A DNA stretch of 64,000 bases from Acidaminococcus timonensis. Its GTDB lineage: Bacteria > Bacillota > Negativicutes > Acidaminococcales > Acidaminococcaceae. The stretch covers positions 1 to 64,000 of the forward strand of contig NZ_FNWH01000005.1 of the NCBI RefSeq assembly GCF_900106585.1, read 5' to 3'. A program made the position numbers and the translations under genes. The notes beneath the pieces were generated by a model. It made no database searches. It was given only the letters and a program-made list of their open reading frames with translations, and had not been told where the DNA came from. This document shows positions 15,594 through 41,310 of this stretch, one piece after another; the first letter of the stretch is position 1; the number at the start of each line of letters is the position of its first letter.

Positions 15594-15657
15594 TGGAAGC
15601 CAGCTGCCGCTAGCGAAATAAAGGCGCTGTAGATGATTTTTTCACAGCGCCTTTTCT
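15592..15657. repeat. Partial mosaic intergenic repeat with bidirectional terminator
   Basis: GATGGAAGCCAGCTGCCGCT followed by AGCGAAATAAAGGCGCTGT, then a hairpin (GGCGCTGT and ACAGCGCC, 15623-15651) and TTTT. Same modules as at 34490-34622 and 51731-51850. It separates the convergent EamA and MATE genes and can terminate both. Confidence 0.75.
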
Positions 15658-15668
15658 TCCTCTTGAGA

Positions 15669-17033
15669 TCAAATTCCGGAGACTCTGGTCTTTTCTATGT
15701 GCCGCAGCCGCAGGCTCAGGAAGGCCGCCGAAAAGAAGATCCCCGTGATCAGTCCGATCCAGTAACTGTCCGGCCCCTTTCCCCACACATGGTCCAGCAG
15801 CAGCCCAAAGGGCAGAGCAATGCCCCAGTAAGCAGCCAGGGCCGAATAGAACGTGGCCTTCACGTCCTTGTAGCCCCGCAGCACTCCCTGGATGGGAGCT
15901 GCCGTGCTGTCGAAGAACTGGAACGCCACCGCAAAGGTCAAAAAGTGCATGATGGGTGCCAGCAACGCTGCATCCTCGGTGTACAGGGTTGCAATAAGCC
16001 CCCTGCCCAGGAACAGGCACAGCCCGAAACAGGCTCCGATCAGGATGTTGGAGATCCTCCCCGTATCTGCATAGGCTTTGGCCTGGGCAAAATCCCGGGC
16101 CCCCACATACGCTCCCACCAGGATGGTCAGGGACAGGGAGAAGCTCAGGGGCACCATGTATAGCATGTTGCAGAAGCTCATGGCGGCCTGGTTGGCTGCC
16201 ACCACAACGGTACCGAACCGGGAAACCAGCAGACATTCCACACCGAAGAAGCTGGTTTCCAGGAAAATGGCCAGTCCCATGGGAATGCCGACCCGCAGAT
16301 GTTCCCGTACATGGTGGAAGGAGAATCCGCTCCGCCGGAACACGTGGAATTCCCGGAACACCTTCAGCCGCAGCACCACCAGGACAAAGGCCATAAGCAG
16401 CAGCCAGCAAGTAATGGCCGTGCCTACCCCGGCACCCGGGCCGCCCAGGGCAGGCATGCCCAATTTTCCAAAGATGAAGATGTAGTTCATACAGGCGTTG
16501 ATGGGCATGGTCAGAAGGAACAGCCGCATGGTCACCTGGGTATACCCCAGGCTGTCCACAAAGCACCGGAGGATGCTGGCAGAAAACAGCGGCAGGATGC
16601 CCCAGGCCACAAAGCCCAGGTAGCGGAAGGCCACCTGCCGCACTGCCGGTTCCAGGCTCATGGTATCCAGGATCTTCGGCAGCAGCTGGCTGCCTGCGGC
16701 AATGATGCCGAAGGCCAGGGCCGCCGCCAGGGTCAGGCCGCTGAACACGGCCCCGGAGATTTTTTCGAACTGGCGGGCACCCCGGTAGTTGGCCACAATG
16801 GGTGTCAGTGCCTGAAGAATGCCGTTCAGGCCCGTGAACACCGGCATCCAGATGTTGCTGCCGATGGCCACCCCGGCCAATTCCCTTGTCCCTGCATGGC
16901 CGCTCATGACTGTATCGAACAGACTCATCCCCGTAATACACAGCTGGGTGATCAGGATGGGGATCATGACCCCCAGGATCCGCCGCAGCCGGCTTTGAAA
17001 AGTTCCTGTAGCAGGGCTTTCCGTAAACAACAA
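15669..17033 (-). CDS. MATE-family efflux transporter
   Basis: 454 aa, about 12 membrane helices, normal MATE length. Conserved regions: LITQLCITGMSLFDTVMSGH at the N-terminus and FFDSTAAPIQGVLRGYKDVK in the second half. Probably a cation-coupled exporter of drugs or metabolites. TTG start; either of two adjacent TTG codons fits the AAAGGAG site. Confidence 0.88.
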   Translation of the reverse strand: MLFTESPATGTFQSRLRRILGVMIPILITQLCITGMSLFDTVMSGHAGTRELAGVAIGSNIWMPVFTGLNGILQALTPIVANYRGARQFEKISGAVFSGLTLAAALAFGIIAAGSQLLPKILDTMSLEPAVRQVAFRYLGFVAWGILPLFSASILRCFVDSLGYTQVTMRLFLLTMPINACMNYIFIFGKLGMPALGGPGAGVGTAITCWLLLMAFVLVVLRLKVFREFHVFRRSGFSFHHVREHLRVGIPMGLAIFLETSFFGVECLLVSRFGTVVVAANQAAMSFCNMLYMVPLSFSLSLTILVGAYVGARDFAQAKAYADTGRISNILIGACFGLCLFLGRGLIATLYTEDAALLAPIMHFLTFAVAFQFFDSTAAPIQGVLRGYKDVKATFYSALAAYWGIALPFGLLLDHVWGKGPDSYWIGLITGIFFSAAFLSLRLRHIEKTRVSGI

Positions 17034-27536: not shown

Positions 27537-27782
27537 AAAGCTTCCGTCCCTGCAGGGACGAAAGCATCGTGGTACCACCCGGCTTCGCCTGGCGAACCAG
27601 GCCTCTCGAGCACGCGAACCGCGTTCGGATGCTCCAGTGCTGTAACGGGCACACCCGGACGACCTACTTGGTTTCAATCATCTGCTCCAAGGCCATATTC
27701 CCTTCTTGGCCCGCTCTCCCTTTCACCGGTCGGAAGCTCTCTGTGCCGTGCGCCGAAGGTACTCTTCTTTTCATTGCAACAT
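27537..27782 (-). promoter_or_regulatory. T-box leader, methionine specifier, controlling metA
   Basis: On the minus strand: stem I with AGTACC and AGAGAG bulge sequences, a specifier region GAATATGGCCTTGGAGC presenting AUG, then the antiterminator T-box GGGTGGTACCACG, and a terminator (CGTCCCTGCAGGGACG, then GC and a T-run) ending about 30 bp before metA. Uncharged tRNA-Met would stabilise the antiterminator and switch on metA-tadA. The specifier assignment is by eye; the T-box itself is clear. Confidence 0.9.
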
Positions 27783-27800
27783 TGATTTGAAATTAGTCTC

Positions 27801-32865: not shown

Positions 32866-34245
32866 ATGAAAGAAAAGAACATACCCTTCAAACCCAAAGA
32901 AAATATCGAACTGACCATCACCGGACTGGGAAGCTCCGGAGAAGGAGTGGGCAAACTCAGCGGTTTTACGTTCTTTGTGCCGGGTGCGCTGCCCGGTGAA
33001 CGGGTCCAGGCCCAGGTCACGGTCCTGAAGAAAAATTACGGCCAGGCCCGGCTGTCCAAGCTGCTGGTCCCTTCCCCTGACCGGGTAACCCCTCCCTGCC
33101 CTGTATATGCCCAGTGCGGAGGCTGTCAGCTGCAGCACCTGTCCTATCCGGCCCAGCTGGCTCTGAAACGCCAGACTGTAGTGGACGCCATGGAACGGAT
33201 CGGCCATTTCAAGAACCTGGCGGTACTGGAAACCCTGGGAGCTCCGGATCCCTGGCATTACCGGAACAAGATGCAGGTCCCGGCGGCCCAGGGCAGGAAC
33301 CATACCCTGCACATTGGCTGCTACGCCCAGGGCACCCACCGGATCATCGACGTGGACGACTGCCTCATCCAGCAGCAGGCCAACAACCAGATTGTCCATG
33401 TGGTGCGGCGCTGGATGGAACAATACAGGATCCCGGCACTGGAAGAAGATGCCCGCCGGGGCATTGTGCGGCACATCATGGGCCGGGTGGGGGTACGGAC
33501 CGGCGAGGTCATGGCTGTACTGGTGACCAACGAGCCCCAGGTGCCCCACCTGAAAGACCTGGTGTCCATGCTGAAAAAAGATGTACCCGGGTTTGTGACC
33601 CTGGTCCAGAACCTGAACACCCGGCATACCAATGTCATTCTGGGCCCCAAGAACAAGATCATCTACGGACCCGGGATCATCCACGACCGGCTGGGAGACT
33701 TCACCTTCTCCATCTCTCCCCTGTCCTTTTTCCAGGTGAACACCCTGCAGGCGGAAAAATTGTATGAGACGGCTCTGCAGTATGCAGCCCTTACCGGTCA
33801 GGAAAATGTCATTGACGCCTACTGTGGTACCGGTACCATCACCCTGTTCCTGTCCCGGAAGGCCCGGCGGGCTCTGGGCATCGAGATTGTGGCCCCGGCC
33901 ATCCGGGACGCCCGTCAGAACGCCCGGGACAACCACATCCAGAACGTGGATTTCCTCTGTGGCGACGCGGCCAGGGAAATGCCGGAGCTGGTGAAAAACG
34001 GCAGCCGTCCTGACGTGGTGGTTCTGGATCCTCCCCGGGCAGGCTGCGAGCAACGGGTGCTGGATGCCATTGCGAAAGTCCGGCCCCATCGGGTGGTGTA
34101 CGTTTCCTGTAACCCGGCCTCCCTGGCAAGGGATGCGGCCATCCTGCGGGATAGAGGCTTCGTCGTGCGCAAGGTCCAGCCTGTGGACATGTTCCCCCAC
34201 ACCAGCCATGTGGAGAGTGTAGCCTTGTTGACGTACACCCGGTAA
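32866..34245 (+). CDS. rlmD: 23S rRNA (uracil-5)-methyltransferase, RumA/RlmD family
   Basis: 459 aa. N-terminal TRAM domain (LTITGLGSSGEGVGKLSGFT), iron-sulfur Cys cluster CPVYAQCGGCQLQHL, SAM site DAYCGTGTITLF, and catalytic segment LDPPRAGCEQRVLDAI with VVYVSCNPASLARD. Which uridine is methylated (1939 or 747) cannot be told. TATAAT at 32850-32855 is only about 10 bp before ATG, so the mRNA may have almost no 5' leader. Confidence 0.9.
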   Translation: MKEKNIPFKPKENIELTITGLGSSGEGVGKLSGFTFFVPGALPGERVQAQVTVLKKNYGQARLSKLLVPSPDRVTPPCPVYAQCGGCQLQHLSYPAQLALKRQTVVDAMERIGHFKNLAVLETLGAPDPWHYRNKMQVPAAQGRNHTLHIGCYAQGTHRIIDVDDCLIQQQANNQIVHVVRRWMEQYRIPALEEDARRGIVRHIMGRVGVRTGEVMAVLVTNEPQVPHLKDLVSMLKKDVPGFVTLVQNLNTRHTNVILGPKNKIIYGPGIIHDRLGDFTFSISPLSFFQVNTLQAEKLYETALQYAALTGQENVIDAYCGTGTITLFLSRKARRALGIEIVAPAIRDARQNARDNHIQNVDFLCGDAAREMPELVKNGSRPDVVVLDPPRAGCEQRVLDAIAKVRPHRVVYVSCNPASLARDAAILRDRGFVVRKVQPVDMFPHTSHVESVALLTYTR

Positions 34246-34489: not shown

Positions 34490-34622
34490 GGGGGGTGTGA
34501 AAAAATGCTTTTTCACACCCCGTCACTAGTCACTAGTCTCTAGTCACTAGCCGATGGAAGCCAGCTGACGCTAGCGAAATAAAGGCGCTGTGGATGATTT
34601 TTTCACAGCGCCTTATTTTTTT
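34490..34622. repeat. Complete mosaic intergenic repeat
   Basis: Order of modules: hairpin GGGGTGTGAAAAA/TTTTTCACACCCC; heptamers CGTCACTAGTCACTAGTC and more; CCGATGGAAGCCAGCTGACG with CTAGCGAAAT; and hairpin AAGGCGCTGTG/CACAGCGCCTT with T-rich flank. The same order occurs at 39231-39345 and, inverted, at 51731-51850. The last hairpin can terminate the adjacent HD-domain gene. Confidence 0.85.
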
Positions 34623-35389: not shown

Positions 35390-35418
35390 TTGACAAAATT
35401 CTCTTTGTCGACTACAAT
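35390..35418 (+). promoter_or_regulatory. Strong promoter of the yeiH-type sulfur operon
   Basis: TTGACA, 17-bp spacer, TACAAT, near the sigma-A consensus. Predicted start near 35425 gives a leader of about 370 nt before the first large gene. Confidence 0.85.
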
Positions 35419-35424
35419 TTCACC

Positions 35425-35453
35425 ATACATTGCAATGTATACTGAAATAGTAT
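35425..35453. promoter_or_regulatory. Two palindromes over the transcription start (operator)
   Basis: ATACATTGCAATGTAT (35425-35440) is a perfect 16-bp palindrome at the predicted start site and is overlapped by ATACT-GAAAT-AGTAT (35439-35453). Their position suggests a repressor site. The regulator is not identifiable from the window. Confidence 0.6.
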
Positions 35454-35488
35454 GTTTTTAATTTCTTTCCTAAAAAGGAGAATCCACC

Positions 35489-35569
35489 ATGGAGAACCGA
35501 TTCAATTTTGTATGTATGTGTTGCCACTGTCAGCGAATGTGCAGTGACAACGCAGAAAGCATGGGGTAA
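35489..35569 (+). CDS. Cysteine-rich leader peptide, 26 codons
   Basis: ATG preceded by AAAAAGGAG with 8-bp spacing, an excellent ribosome site. The 26-aa peptide has Cys at 9, 11, 12, 14 and 18 (core VCMCCHCQRMC), five of ten residues, then an ordinary tail and TAA. The same bases can form a hairpin (TTGCCACTG/CAGTGACAA). Clustered Cys codons ahead of sulfur genes and an intrinsic terminator are the hallmark of leader-peptide attenuation by Cys-tRNA supply, as described for cysteine-rich leader peptides in mycobacteria. Alternatively it is a tiny metal-binding protein. Too short for ordinary gene calling. Confidence 0.72.
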   Translation: MENRFNFVCMCCHCQRMCSDNAESMG

Positions 35570-35614
35570 CGCCTGGCTTTTCTACAACTGAACACCTGCA
35601 CAACCGATCATCTT

Positions 35615-35760
35615 CCACAGCCCGGGATCCGTTCCTCACAGCTGTGGCAGCCGTCTTTGGGTACGGCAACGAACAAACGGGACTCTCCCGGCAGATGAGC
35701 GAAGTGTGCGGACTCCGTGGTTTTTCACACGCCATCTGTCAAGCAGGTGGCGTTTTTTTG
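35615..35760 (+). promoter_or_regulatory. Terminator/antiterminator attenuator before yeiH-type gene
   Basis: Terminator: CGCCATCTG (35730-35738), TCAAG loop, CAGGTGGCG (35744-35752), TTTTTTT. A competing helix pairs GGCAGATG (35690-35697) with CATCTGTC (35733-35740) and GTGTG (35704-35708) with CACAC (35726-35730), which would destroy the terminator stem. Upstream hairpins: CCACAGC/GCTGTGG (35615-35647), GCCGT/ACGGC (35650-35667), CGGGA/TCCCG (35678-35690). No known riboswitch consensus is recognised. Confidence 0.75.
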
Positions 35761-35797
35761 TGCCACCGGAGCAAACATTCCATGAGGTGATAAGACA

Positions 35798-37276
35798 ATG
35801 AGCAAAGAAAATATCCAAACGAGCAGCCGGCCCACGGGCCTGCTGGGCAGCGAAGACTGGTGGGCCGTATGGCTGGGGCTGTTCATCACCCTGCTGGGCC
35901 TGGGCAAGATCTGGGGGCTTGACCTGCTGGGCTGGGCAGCCACCTTCGGGGTCTGGATCGACCCGGCAAAAGCAGTAGGGACTAGCTCCAAAGCCTACGC
36001 CTGGCTGGGCAGCCCGGGAGCCCTGACCGCCACCTGGCTGTTCACTCTGGGGGTAACCTCCATCGGGGCCCGATTCATGAAGGCCGACGTGAAAAAATTT
36101 GCTGCCGGTTTTTCGGTGATCTACTGGATCACCATCCTGTCCAACATCCTGGGCAACTACGCCTACCTGGCAGCCACCCCCAACAAGCGGGCTGCCTTCC
36201 ACATCGGCTGGTCCCTGAGCCTGGGCGAACTGGGCTTTGTGATTGCCCTGGTGGCCGGACTCATCATCGGGAACTTCTTCCCCACCCTGGCCCGGTTCCT
36301 TTCCACGGCAGCCAAGCCGGAATGGTATATCAAGACGGGCATCGTGATCCTGGGGGCCAACATCGGTATCCAGGCCATCAGCGCCCTGGGCCTGGCCAGC
36401 ACGGTCATCCTGCGGGGACTGTGCGCCGTGGTGGAAGCCTACCTGATCTACTGGCCGGTGGTGTATTTCGTAGCCCGGAAGTTCTTTAAGTTTACGCCGG
36501 AATGGGCTGCTCCCATGGCCTCCGGCATCTCCATCTGCGGGGTGGCAGCCGCCATCGCCACGGGCAGTGCCATCAAGGCCCGGCAGATCATCCCCACCAT
36601 CCTGGCTTCTGTGATCATTGTATTCGTCGCCGTGGAACTGCTGATCCTGCCCTTTGCAGCGGCCTATTTCCTGCCCGGAGATCCCATGGTGGCCGGTTCC
36701 TGGCTGGGGCTTGTGGTCAAAAGTGACGGCGGGGCCGTGGCCTCCGGTGCCATCGCTGACAGCCTGATCCGCAGCAGGGCCCTGGAACTGTTCGGGGTGA
36801 AATATCAGGAAGGCTGGATCCTAATGGCTGCCACCACTTCCAAGGTGTTCATCGACATCTTCATCGGGGTATGGTCCTTCATCCTGGCTGTGGTCTGGTC
36901 CATCTACCATCTGAACAACCCCAAAGCGGCAGGCAGCAGCGGCAAGGTTTCCAAGCAGGAAATCTGGAACCGGTTTCCCAAATTCATTCTGGGCTTTGTG
37001 GTCACGTTGGTGGGCATCTTCCTGGCCGGCTGGGCCCATCCTGGAATCATGGCCGGTGCCAAAGCCGGGGCAGGCCAGGCCAACCTGCTACGGGCCGTAT
37101 TCTTCGGACTGTGCTTCTTCTCCATCGGCCTGGTGACCAATGTTCGGAAGCTGTGGAACGCCGGCCTGGGCCGTGTCATCGGGGTGTATTCTGTGACTCT
37201 CCTGGGCTTCATCATCTGGGTCGGTCTGAGCATTTCCTACATTTTCTACCACGGCGTACTGCCTCCGGTGTTGTAA
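35798..37276 (+). CDS. YeiH-family (UPF0324) putative anion transporter
   Basis: 492 aa, about 11-12 membrane helices. Family features: LVAGLIIGNFFPTLARFLST, KTGIVILGANIGIQAISAL, and MASGISICGVAAAIATGSAI. Longer than the roughly 350-aa enterobacterial YeiH, with extra N-terminal and internal segments. YeiH proteins are annotated as sulfate exporters and linked to sulfite stress through YeiE. Here it precedes a siroheme reductase, which supports sulfite or a related sulfur anion as substrate. Confidence 0.85.
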   Translation: MSKENIQTSSRPTGLLGSEDWWAVWLGLFITLLGLGKIWGLDLLGWAATFGVWIDPAKAVGTSSKAYAWLGSPGALTATWLFTLGVTSIGARFMKADVKKFAAGFSVIYWITILSNILGNYAYLAATPNKRAAFHIGWSLSLGELGFVIALVAGLIIGNFFPTLARFLSTAAKPEWYIKTGIVILGANIGIQAISALGLASTVILRGLCAVVEAYLIYWPVVYFVARKFFKFTPEWAAPMASGISICGVAAAIATGSAIKARQIIPTILASVIIVFVAVELLILPFAAAYFLPGDPMVAGSWLGLVVKSDGGAVASGAIADSLIRSRALELFGVKYQEGWILMAATTSKVFIDIFIGVWSFILAVVWSIYHLNNPKAAGSSGKVSKQEIWNRFPKFILGFVVTLVGIFLAGWAHPGIMAGAKAGAGQANLLRAVFFGLCFFSIGLVTNVRKLWNAGLGRVIGVYSVTLLGFIIWVGLSISYIFYHGVLPPVL

Positions 37277-37326
37277 GCGACTGAAAACGAAAGAACAATG
37301 ATTGAAAAGAAATGAGGGATCTACAA

Positions 37327-37548
37327 ATGGAAAGGGATATTTTGACCAATGTACATTCAGCAGCAGATGAATATTATGAACGCCAGGTGGTGAAACCCAC
37401 CACAGCCAGGGTCCATGCAGTACAGCTGGACCAGGATGCGGAGGAATATTTTCCGCTGCAGCCCATCGAGAAAAAACTGTGCGCCTATTCCCTGGGCCTG
37501 GGTCTGGTACTCATGGCGGTGTTCATTTTGTTTTTTGAAGTGCTGTAG
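37327..37548 (+). CDS. Small single-pass membrane protein
   Basis: 73 aa: soluble charged N-terminal part (SAADEYYERQVVKPTTARVH) and one C-terminal helix (LGLGLVLMAVFILFFEVL). ATG chosen with AGGG 9 bp upstream; another ATG 15 bp earlier is possible. Lies between the transporter and the reductase in the same direction; perhaps an accessory subunit. No family recognised. Confidence 0.6.
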   Translation: MERDILTNVHSAADEYYERQVVKPTTARVHAVQLDQDAEEYFPLQPIEKKLCAYSLGLGLVLMAVFILFFEVL

Positions 37549-37657
37549 CATCCAGCACCCGGGGTAGAAAGCGGAAAAGAAAAAACGACTGCCTCCCGGT
37601 ACAAAATATGGTATGATGGTATCGATTGTAAGATTGGAAAAAGGAGTTTGGACATCC

Positions 37658-39220
37658 ATGACACAGATTACGGAAAAGACAAAAGAAACCATCCGGGAAC
37701 AGTTCCCGGTGTTCCAGGAAGCGGCCAGAGCTTTCTATGCCAAGGAACTGCCCCCGGCAAAGTATAAAGGCACCAGCGGCAAATTCGGTTCCTACGGAGA
37801 ACGGGGCGCCGGAACCAGCATGCTGCGGCTGCGCTTCCCGGCCGGAGCCATCGATACGGACCACATGCGGTTCCTGGCCCGGGTCATCCGGCAATATCAG
37901 GTGCAGCTGGCCCACTTCACCACCGGGGAAGCCCTCCAGCTCCATCACCTGGATGAAAAGACCGTACTGGCTCTGTACCAGGAATGCTTTGAGGCCGGCA
38001 TCTACTGCTATGGGGCTGGAGGGGACAATCCCCGGAACATGACGGCCAGTCCCCTCCATGGGGTGGAAAAAGGGGAACCTTTTGACATGACGCCTGCCAT
38101 CAAGGCGGCTGCCAACTTTCTGACCAATCTGATCCCGGATCTGAAGCTGCCCCGAAAATACAAGGTCAGCTTCTCCAACGGCATTGACAACGAAGGCCAT
38201 GCCACTTTCAAGGATCTGGGCTTCGTGGCCCGCACTGATGGCACCTTCGACGTCTATGCCGGCGGCGGTTTCGGTGTGAATGGCTCCCGTTTCGGCCTGA
38301 AGATCAAAGAACAGGTTCCGGCAGAAGCCCTGTCCTGGTACATCGAAGGATACGCCCGGGATGTGTATATGAAGTACGGGGACTACCAGCACCGGGGTAC
38401 GGCCCGTTCCCGTTTCATCCGTGACAGGCTGGGAGATGAGCAGTTCCGCCGGGAAGTACTGGCCGCTGCCGAAAGGGCCCAGGCCAGCGGAGTACCGGCC
38501 CTGGAACTGGAACCGGAACCGGCACTGGAAAAGCGCGGTAAAGACGACCGTGTGCTGGAAAATCCCCGGATCCATGGCCAGAAACAGGAAGGCCTGTACT
38601 ATGTGGAGTACAAACCGGTGGGCGGCGTTCCGGACATGGCTGTATTCCGGAAGCTCCTGGATACCGCCGGTTCCCTGGAGGGTGCCGAACTGCGGCTGAA
38701 TGCGGACGAAACCTGCTACATCATCAATCTGACTGCGGAGGAAGCACGGACCATCGCAACTCTCACTGACAGCGACACTGCCCATACGGACTTCGAACAT
38801 TCCGTAAGCTGCATCGGTGCGGCTGTCTGTCAGCAGGGCCTGTGTGATTCCCATGGTACCCTGGCCCGTCTGGTGAGAGTCCTGCGGGAATCCGGAGAAG
38901 ATACCCACTACCTGCCCAAATGCCATTTCTCCGGCTGCCCTTCCACCTGCACCGTACAGAGTGTGGCGCCCCTGGGCTTCCGGGGAGCCTTCACCCTGGT
39001 GAACGGAGAACGGGCCAGTGCCTTCCAGGTCTATGCCGATGGCAGCTATGCCTATGGAAAGGAAAGGATCAGCGAGCCCCTGGCTCTGATCCCCACCGCC
39101 CGGCTGCCCCGATTCTTCCTGGCACTGAACGAAACCCTTCTCAAAGCCAGAGAGCCTTTTACCAGCTGGTATCCGGAACACAAAGACCAGTTCCTCGCCC
39201 TGGCCAGGGAATTTGCCTGA
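37658..39220 (+). CDS. Siroheme sulfite/nitrite reductase-family protein
   Basis: 520 aa. Two half-repeats of the nitrite/sulfite reductase ferredoxin-like domain; FSNGIDNEGHATFKDLGFVA and YAGGGFGVNGSRFG lie in the siroheme-binding core. The 4Fe-4S/siroheme ligands are Cys385 and Cys391 (CIGAAVC) and Cys427 and Cys431 (GCPSTC). AAAGGAG 12 bp before ATG. With the YeiH-type transporter and Cys-rich leader upstream, assimilatory sulfite reduction is more likely than nitrite, but this is inference. Confidence 0.87.
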   Translation: MTQITEKTKETIREQFPVFQEAARAFYAKELPPAKYKGTSGKFGSYGERGAGTSMLRLRFPAGAIDTDHMRFLARVIRQYQVQLAHFTTGEALQLHHLDEKTVLALYQECFEAGIYCYGAGGDNPRNMTASPLHGVEKGEPFDMTPAIKAAANFLTNLIPDLKLPRKYKVSFSNGIDNEGHATFKDLGFVARTDGTFDVYAGGGFGVNGSRFGLKIKEQVPAEALSWYIEGYARDVYMKYGDYQHRGTARSRFIRDRLGDEQFRREVLAAAERAQASGVPALELEPEPALEKRGKDDRVLENPRIHGQKQEGLYYVEYKPVGGVPDMAVFRKLLDTAGSLEGAELRLNADETCYIINLTAEEARTIATLTDSDTAHTDFEHSVSCIGAAVCQQGLCDSHGTLARLVRVLRESGEDTHYLPKCHFSGCPSTCTVQSVAPLGFRGAFTLVNGERASAFQVYADGSYAYGKERISEPLALIPTARLPRFFLALNETLLKAREPFTSWYPEHKDQFLALAREFA

Positions 39221-39230
39221 CATACCTGAA

Positions 39231-39345
39231 AGGGGATGTGAAAAAATGATTTTCACATCCCCGTCACTAGTCTCTAGCCGATGGAAGCCAGCTTACGCTG
39301 GCAAATTTAAGGCGCTGTGAATGATTTTTTCACAGCGCCTTTTGT
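39231..39345. repeat. Mosaic intergenic repeat, third full-order copy
   Basis: Hairpin GGGGATGTGAAAA/TTTTCACATCCCC, heptamers CGTCACTAGTCTCTAG, CCGATGGAAGCCAGCTTACG with CTGG, and hairpin AAGGCGCTGTG/CACAGCGCCTT with TTTT. Separates the convergent reductase and hydrolase genes, terminating both. Confidence 0.82.
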
Positions 39346-40389: not shown

Positions 40390-41310
40390 TTATGGTTCCG
40401 GCAAAAGGGCACACCAGAACAGGATGGTGAACATGCTGAGCAACGTGGACAATACGGTCAGTTTTGTGGCAAAGGGAGCATCGCTGCCATACCGGGCGGC
40501 GAAGATGGCCGTGGTCGCCCCCGCCGGCATCCCGGTCATGAGCACGGCAATCCCCGTAGCCACCGCATCCAGGTGCAGCGCCGCACTGACACCCCAGGCC
40601 AGGGCCGGAAGCAGCAGCAGCCGCAGCACACTGTACAGGAAGCTGTCCCGGTTGAAAATGGTTAAAAGGGGCACATCTGCCAGGATGGTCCCGATGATGA
40701 ACATGGTGACAGCCGCATTGCAGTTTCCGATGTACTGGATGGTCATGGTCAGGAAACCGGGCAGCCGCACCTGGGTCGCCATGATCAGGATGCCGATGTA
40801 CACCCCGATCAGGCAGGGATGGGTCAGCACCTTTTTCAGCACCTGCCGCCGGCTCATATGGGATGCCATGAAATAACTGGTCCCCACGGACCACATGACC
40901 ATCCGCAGGGGGATCAGGAACACCGAAGCGTAGAACAGGCCCAGGGATCCATACACCCCTTCAGCAACCGGATACCCCAAAAAGCCGCTGTTGGACACCA
41001 GTGTGCCATACTGCAGCACCTTTTTCCGGGTATCTGGATATCGGTTGAACAGAAAATGGTTCAATCCCATGAAGAGGAACTGCAAAATGGCCCCGGCCGC
41101 CAGGATCCGGCCGCAGGTGAGAAAAATATTCCCCTCAAAAGGCATGAGACAGGATTTGATGATGTTACAGGGAATGATCACATTCACCACCAGATCGGTG
41201 AGACACCGTTTGCCGGATTCGTCCACAATGTTCTTTTTGCGCAAATAGAGTCCGATGAGGATCATCAGGAACAGGGAAAGCTGCAGATTCCCCAGCCGTA
41301 CGATATCCAT
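40390..41310 (-). CDS. AEC-family (auxin efflux carrier-like) transporter
   Basis: 306 aa, about 10 membrane helices, with the AEC pattern NSGFLGYPVAEGVYG in the first half and TGMPAGATTAIFAARYG in the second. Members export malonate, malate or other organic acids. Substrate not determined. 12 bp downstream of the SDR gene, so likely one unit. Confidence 0.85.
   Translation of the reverse strand: MDIVRLGNLQLSLFLMILIGLYLRKKNIVDESGKRCLTDLVVNVIIPCNIIKSCLMPFEGNIFLTCGRILAAGAILQFLFMGLNHFLFNRYPDTRKKVLQYGTLVSNSGFLGYPVAEGVYGSLGLFYASVFLIPLRMVMWSVGTSYFMASHMSRRQVLKKVLTHPCLIGVYIGILIMATQVRLPGFLTMTIQYIGNCNAAVTMFIIGTILADVPLLTIFNRDSFLYSVLRLLLLPALAWGVSAALHLDAVATGIAVLMTGMPAGATTAIFAARYGSDAPFATKLTVLSTLLSMFTILFWCALLPEP

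Follow-up and report, generated by a model that had tools for sequence, protein, structure and literature searches.

A cysteine-rich leader peptide appears to control sulfur genes of Acidaminococcus timonensis through a decayed SAM-I riboswitch

The DNA ahead of a transporter gene in Acidaminococcus timonensis raises the question of how a ribosome translating a short, cysteine-rich leader could govern a transcription terminator when the leader stop codon lies 120 nt before the antiterminator. We analyzed this locus within a stretch of 64,000 nucleotides (hereafter the window). An initial annotation had described a promoter, two palindromes over the start site, a 26-codon ORF with a good ribosome site and five Cys in ten residues, and a terminator with a competing antiterminator, all of which were located in our analysis (Table 1); the second palindrome (35439–35453, read from the sequence) has 5-bp arms. 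The leader Cys residues occupy positions 9, 11, 12, 14 and 18 (35513–35542). With each ORF taken from its first start codon, the six frames of the 64 kb hold two ORFs of 10–60 codons with at least five Cys in ten residues, the second being on the minus strand, whereas 40 Markov controls averaged 0.05 such ORFs and a single control had any. The locus combines a short ORF, a ribosome site and pathway-relevant Cys codons ahead of sulfur-type genes, which is the arrangement of a leader-peptide attenuator.

Table 1. Features of the leader region and downstream genes (window positions)
Feature	Position	Strand	Basis or remark
Sigma-70-type promoter, TTGACA-17-TACAAT	35390–35418	+	Consensus matches 11/12
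Perfect 16-mer palindrome ATACATTGCAATGTAT	35425–35440		Directly 3′ of −10; candidate operator
Shine-Dalgarno of leader, AAGGAG	35475–35480	+	Sequence
Cys-rich leader ORF, 26 codons, MENRFNFVCMCCHCQRMCSDNAESMG	35489–35569	+	Sequence, conservation, rarity versus controls
Leader hairpin a:b over Cys codons 11, 12, 14, 18	35517–35554	+	Predicted probability 0.96 without ribosome
Strand b, UGUGCAG	35538–35544	+	Complementary to strand c
Strand c, CUGCACA, 5′ side of P1 extension	35596–35602	+	Folds
Decayed SAM-I aptamer (four-way junction)	35605–35701	+	Model R2, 26.7 bits; within R1 match
P2 stem	35615–35647	+	Fold; 8/8 R1 model pairs standard
P3 stem	35650–35667	+	Fold; 6/9 R1 model pairs standard
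P4 stem	35678–35690	+	Fold; 4/4 R1 model pairs standard
Antiterminator (CAGAUG:CAUCUG, GUGUG:CACAC)	35692–35738	+	Competes with terminator in folds
Strand d: P1 3′ side AGAUGA and extension UGUGCGG; also antiterminator 5′ side	35693–35711	+	Folds
Intrinsic terminator and U tract	35729–35760	+	Hairpin 35729–35753, 11 pairs, then T run
YeiH-like transporter gene	35798–37276	+	PF03601, E 5e-19
78-aa protein gene	37312–37548	+	No family match in Pfam or NCBIfam
Siroheme-type reductase gene	37613–39220	+	NIR_SIR domains

With respect to the downstream genes, the earlier naming of the transporter as YeiH holds in a remote sense only, the protein being a PF03601 relative that scores 33 bits with the YeiH model TIGR00698 (cut-off 232.6). 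The siroheme reductase is likewise recognizable by its NIR_SIR domains but falls below every NCBIfam cut-off. The description of these genes as an operon fits the window but is a local arrangement, because the reductase gene lies apart from the transporter gene in two A. fermentans-like genomes, where it follows the end of a methyltransferase gene resembling that at 32866–34245 of the window (read from the sequence). Close transporter homologues were found in 3 of the 61 genomes searched, all in the genus Acidaminococcus (3 of the 9 genus genomes searched), the protein being 92% identical in the two other genomes, both A. fermentans-like; the nearest relatives outside the genus are those of Megasphaera, at 70–81% identity. 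The reductase was matched in 4 of 59 genomes of the family searched, again all within the genus. Near-identical hairpins (AAGGCGCTGTG...CACAGCGCCTT) stand at 34582–34614, 39309–39341 and 15615–15697, two of them flanking the transporter operon, and may represent a repeated terminator element.

Conservation of the Cys codons in relatives had been put forward as a check on the leader, and the leader is indeed kept in the genus relatives that have a close transporter homologue: the A. fermentans-like genomes carry MGILNMCCCCCRMCSHSGTGGR (beginning MGILNMCCCCCRMCS) in the equivalent place. M. cerevisiae also has a leader in the equivalent place before its transporter gene, and promoter-like hexamers can be read there in the sequences of both A. 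fermentans and M. cerevisiae.

What had been taken for a gap between leader and antiterminator derives, as judged from sequence comparison and predicted pairing, from a SAM-I (S-box) riboswitch with its four-way junction. A covariance model built from seven modules of A. fermentans and Megasphaera, covering aptamer and terminator and excluding the window (R1), matched 35593–35762 over the whole model length with 53.1 bits and E 2.9e-12 over 64 kb, the next-best match reaching 8.3 bits. An aptamer-only model of nine sequences (R2) matched the segment given in Table 1 with E 9.6e-5 over 64 kb, its next-best match lying on the minus strand at 40670–40745 (14.7 bits, E 0.14); the E-values of both models are rough because calibration was short. 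In the R1 alignment, 33 of the 37 pairs are standard in the window, including 5/5 in P1 and 10/11 in the terminator, with 31 of 37 in A. fermentans and 35 to 37 in the Megasphaera rows. Segment 35595–35712 alone folds into the same four-way junction at −47 kcal/mol (z −2.9), 3 of 200 shuffles being as good.

Homology, the P1–P4 architecture and the terminator platform, with the P1 3′ strand common to the antiterminator, all align this element with SAM-I (RF00162). It differs from that family in that the window stretch lacks an Rfam SAM match either at the gathering cut-off or up to E 10, and in that its P1 is extended, so that off becomes the default state in our model. The A. fermentans orthologue is intermediate, scoring 29.6 bits against Rfam SAM-I (gathering cut-off 44.4) and lacking the conserved core. 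Rfam's model can thus miss such riboswitch relics. Rfam assigned this stretch to no plausible regulatory family, SAM and T-box included, and a T-box at the leader was set aside, RF00230 giving no match there; elsewhere in the window, Rfam identifies a T-box leader at 27551–27783 on the minus strand (100.1 bits).

Canonical SAM-I riboswitches lie directly upstream of the transporter in Megasphaera NM10 (86.8 bits) and M. cerevisiae (86.2 bits), and in M. paucivorans one of 89.9 bits lies before the gene preceding the transporter. There was no SAM match at gathering for Marseille-P2974 (L020, transporter 74% identical) or for the Selenomonas transporter loci checked (L023–L025, L029). At two of the latter (L023, L024) a Cys-rich leader was sought upstream of the transporter and not found; a different attenuator-like hairpin (AGGTTCC...GGAACCT and a T run, read from the sequence) stands close to the transporter promoter at both.

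In terms of ligand recognition, crystal structures place the AGAG (J1/2) and GCAACC/GGUGC motifs of SAM-I in contact with SAM. A. fermentans keeps 31 of the 48 conserved Rfam positions (45 of 48 in NM10), and its losses include AGAG and GCAACC; when the window is aligned to SAM-I models, AGAG and GAGGGACUGGCCC prove to be replaced. Of 154 SAM-I loci, 152 contain a loose form of the core motif, and the remaining pair are the A. fermentans-like ones; all 60 loci of a second set contain it as well. We infer that the window element has lost SAM binding. It could instead have remained a riboswitch: as a SAM-I variant with a changed core, it might bind SAM weakly or recognize another sulfur metabolite, the leader supplying a second input. 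Ligand variants of riboswitches do arise through altered cores, P1 through P4 can all still fold, and the A. fermentans P2 loop retains canonical letters. We nonetheless regard this possibility as improbable, given the motifs missing from A. fermentans, the lack of any Rfam SAM match at E 10 in the window stretch, and the divergence of P2–P3–J3/4, where the ligand pocket would be: only 18 of 63 positions are identical between the window and A. fermentans, against 60–86% in the switch segments, which argues that the two share no new pocket.

The pattern of identity between these two species (two clearly distinct sequences, too few for covariation statistics) is moderately in agreement with a relay from leader to terminator. 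The switch segments comprise the strand b segment (35534–35547, 12/14 identical), the P1 5′ side (14/22), P4 with the P1 3′ side (17/26), the antiterminator region (15/25) and the terminator (26/32). Identity is 29% in the aptamer interior and 42–54% in the other leader and flanking segments, namely the first half of the leader (19/45), the rest of the leader with the spacer (24/45) and the gene-start segment (20/37). Strand b and the terminator thus stand clearly above their surroundings, whereas the P1 segments do so only slightly (64–65% versus 53–54% in spacer and gene start), and part of the strand b identity may reflect protein constraint, since this strand also encodes a conserved Arg-Met-Cys-Ser. 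A functionless remnant, with leader and aptamer in decay and a terminator whose sole effect is a constant reduction of expression, would suit the vanished SAM core, the occurrence of the transporter in just 3 of 9 genus genomes searched and the no more than moderate identity of segments other than strand b and the terminator. We consider this reading very unlikely. Diverged species have kept the leader, its ribosome site, strand b and the terminator, with much lower identity in the leader's first half and the aptamer interior, and both species compute as switches.

The folds behind this last statement are equilibrium thermodynamic predictions with an assumed ribosome footprint, only RNA downstream of the footprint being folded. 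Strand b contains the codons for Met-Cys-Ser and is the reverse complement of strand c. Without a ribosome, strand b is predicted to be held in the leader hairpin, whose A. fermentans equivalent forms with a probability of 0.96–0.99. With a ribosome at Cys9, Cys11 or Cys12, b:c pairing reaches 0.88–0.92 and P1 is lost; for transcripts with 3′ ends at 35738–35744 the antiterminator then has a probability of 0.69–0.99, compared with at most 0.21 without a ribosome or with one at Cys14, Cys18, Ser19, Gly26 or the stop codon. At 3′ ends 35746–35750, ribosomes at later codons or at the stop mostly favor the antiterminator too, and by 35753 the complete terminator wins in every ribosome state. Ribosome position thus selects in silico between mutually exclusive structures ahead of an intrinsic terminator, in a manner dependent on transcript length, and the narrow span of lengths means that the result relies on a formed P1 not being exchanged quickly. 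A further requirement for the contrast is that the ribosome hold b and c apart, because when pairing around the ribosome was allowed at two 3′ ends, the antiterminator had probabilities of 0.58 and 0.53 with a stop-codon ribosome and 0.15 and 0.54 with one at Cys9.

Among control leaders, 2 of 120 with synonymous codons and 2 of 120 with permuted codons scored at least as high as the real one (0.807). Under the strict criterion of a cruder control, which 3 of 200 synonymous and 0 of 200 permuted leaders passed, the real leader narrowly missed (Cys12, 0.88); the relaxed criterion was passed by 21 and 5 of 200, respectively. In A. fermentans, a stall at Cys8 or Cys9 acted in the same direction as in the window, giving antiterminator probabilities of 0.41–0.94 (at most 0.01 without a ribosome), and the outcome was erratic with transcript length at Cys7 (0.04–0.80) and Cys10 (0.06–0.59). 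At five Megasphaera loci, folded without modeling SAM, a ribosome effect was absent or changed sign between loci; the leader Cys codons there have a possible pairing partner in the spacer that directly follows the stop, a spacer that can also pair with a later strand.

On balance we favor, as probable, a transcription attenuator that works through a leader peptide and is built on a decayed SAM-I riboswitch. Sulfur genes would then seem to be turned on at cysteine shortage through ribosomes stalling on the Cys-rich leader. Cysteine is likely what the leader senses; that the leader is translated, that ribosomes stall on its Cys codons, that shortage acts in the direction of expression and that the old aptamer relays the signal are all features of the proposed model. 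When Cys-tRNA is plentiful, ribosomes would clear the Cys codons, and strand b would be occupied by the a:b hairpin or by the ribosome itself. The extended P1 (c:d) could then form and hold antiterminator strand d, leaving the terminator to end transcription. Under a shortage of Cys-tRNA, a ribosome halted at Cys9, 11 or 12 would open the leader hairpin and free strand b to pair with strand c, breaking P1. Strand d, released in turn, would form the antiterminator and allow transcription of the transporter and sulfur reductase genes. The predicted order of exchange is thus leader hairpin, leader:P1, P1, antiterminator, terminator. A trp-type attenuator without a relay was set aside. In the folds, intermediate hairpins are needed to pass the signal on; the initial annotation had anticipated these hairpins and had missed their origin in a SAM-I-derived four-way junction.

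Known ribosome-mediated attenuators of the trp and his type place regulatory codons in a hairpin that competes with downstream pairings and end in an intrinsic terminator. The window element has the same competition and terminator but differs in its two extra exchanges through a four-way junction and in the 120 nt that separate its leader stop from the antiterminator. Cys leader peptides are also described for Actinobacteria (PMC1262725; reportedly also Canestrari, 2020). In that phylum, cysteine operons are preceded by short ORFs in which Cys codons follow one another; the available text of PMC1262725 finds no conserved terminator hairpin and describes no riboswitch at those operons. The window shares the short Cys-run ORF described there and adds a terminator and a riboswitch relic. 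A SAM-I platform joined to a tRNA-charging signal is described for Xanthomonas, where, according to the available text, the riboswitch also senses uncharged initiator tRNA, the tRNA binding the RNA directly and translation being controlled (PMC7270179). In the window, by comparison with that account, the sensor would be a translating ribosome and the output termination.

The pairing of a Cys leader with a SAM-I riboswitch recurs in the Megasphaeraceae. In 17 genomes, 95 SAM-I loci score above the Rfam cut-off, and we surveyed the sequence upstream of each. Ten of them have a Cys-Cys leader, a short ORF that is preceded by a Shine-Dalgarno sequence, contains adjacent Cys codons and ends 36–44 nt before the aptamer, in each case ahead of sulfur-assimilation genes. 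These are 10 of 12 sulfur-assimilation loci, compared with 0 of 73 in clusters headed by MetQ/NlpA lipoproteins (33), metK (16), metN (16) and brnQ (8); Fisher's p is 2e-11 (7e-12 for 10/12 versus 0/83 when ten ungrouped loci are added), not a literal value because the loci are related. Cluster gene families were named from representatives, and the sulfur-assimilation grouping was made by hand. Leader MGYLKNLTIMCCTI and close forms precede cysteine synthase at five loci (at one, the gene was named by HMM), MEDLKMNIMCCGLIE (alternative start MNIMCCGLIE) precedes cysteine synthase and then sulfate transport genes, MRYLKNLTIMCCNCI precedes the transporter and MESITKIICCGKI precedes O-acetylhomoserine sulfhydrylase. 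Two complete leader and SAM-I modules (L163, L191; G185:C123:15339-15730) stand in series before one sulfonate-type transport operon. The initial annotation, supported in its coupling of a Cys leader to termination before sulfur genes, had missed this pattern of leaders before SAM-I.

Among doublets in Shine-Dalgarno-preceded ORFs ending 10–70 nt before the aptamer, Cys is the commonest (10 loci) and Lys the next (6); with the Shine-Dalgarno requirement dropped, the Cys doublet ranks sixth at 11 of 95 and Lys has 23, in loci not yet fully reoriented. Counted as a miss was the leader MNRIDCMCTNS of genome G132, which has CxC and precedes a DUF2292 gene and then sulfonate-type transport genes; a DUF1847 protein of this operon has a Cys-rich start, MISMLGDCANCNCNHMCARLGKSC (L257:3828-4424). 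Such leaders were seen at 0 of 89 best-scoring (29 and 60, non-random) SAM-I loci of other genera in the class, and at none of 28 other SAM-I loci of the genus Acidaminococcus. Two loci count against our explanation: the NM10 transporter locus has a SAM-I without a leader, and at one M. cerevisiae locus the homologous leader lacks Cys codons. At L199 (G185:C123:29165-29264, minus strand), a homologue of the Cys leader with its Cys codons replaced, MRYLKNLTIIRYGTI, stands before a second SAM-I, which precedes an aminotransferase-like gene (named by eye).

The same leaders bear on whether the peptide itself might act. A Cys-rich nascent chain could sense metal or redox state and arrest or release its ribosome in the manner of CruR, a CXXC uORF that responds to copper and carries a C-terminal RAPP arrest motif, according to the available text (PMC9426467). 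The polycysteine stretch of the window leader, this precedent, and the sequence YLKNLTIMCC (once with K for N) common to 6 of 10 Megasphaeraceae leaders lend the idea some color. Cys11 and Cys14 form a CxxC but RAPP is absent from the window leader, its peptide differs from that of A. fermentans outside the Cys stretch, 9 of 10 Megasphaeraceae leaders have only Cys-Cys, and the named downstream genes serve cysteine and sulfur assimilation rather than metal handling, all of which makes a peptide sensor a poor candidate. A separate functional peptide was likewise set aside.

As for the origin of the attenuator, the simplest reading of the homologues is that the leader and SAM-I module was gained by transfer from a Megasphaera-like donor. 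Megasphaera keeps the ancestral module, a Cys-Cys leader with a canonical SAM-I, which presumably senses both cysteine and SAM. We lean slightly toward a conversion of riboswitch into attenuator, in which a Cys leader came to lie ahead of SAM-I riboswitches of sulfur genes in Megasphaera and gave dual control, the module passed to Acidaminococcus and the dead aptamer became the relay; after transfer, the SAM pocket would have been lost, P1 lengthened, the Cys codons multiplied and direct leader:P1 pairing gained. If true, one RNA sensor could be traced as it changed into another, with intermediate stages in living relatives: canonical SAM-I without a leader (NM10), leader with canonical SAM-I (M. 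cerevisiae), leader with damaged SAM-I (A. fermentans) and leader with scaffold only (the window). It would also point to two-input control of sulfur assimilation, with cysteine read by the ribosome and SAM by the aptamer. Titles and abstract starts among the literature matches listed, with most subscription journals outside this scope, contained neither a Cys leader before a SAM-I riboswitch nor a riboswitch relic serving a leader peptide.

The start site may carry a further input. The palindrome ACATTGCAATGY occupies the equivalent position in the transporter promoters of M. cerevisiae (L264) and G132 (L271), at the latter of which a Cys-rich leader was sought and not found. Across 18 genomes this pattern occurs at 12 sites, eight of which were not recognized as promoters of this kind. 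A site related to ACATTGCAATGT lies upstream of the sulfonate module of G185 (L270), and the window's own copy of ACATTGCAATGT, at the first palindrome, could possibly provide a third layer of control through a putative transcription factor.
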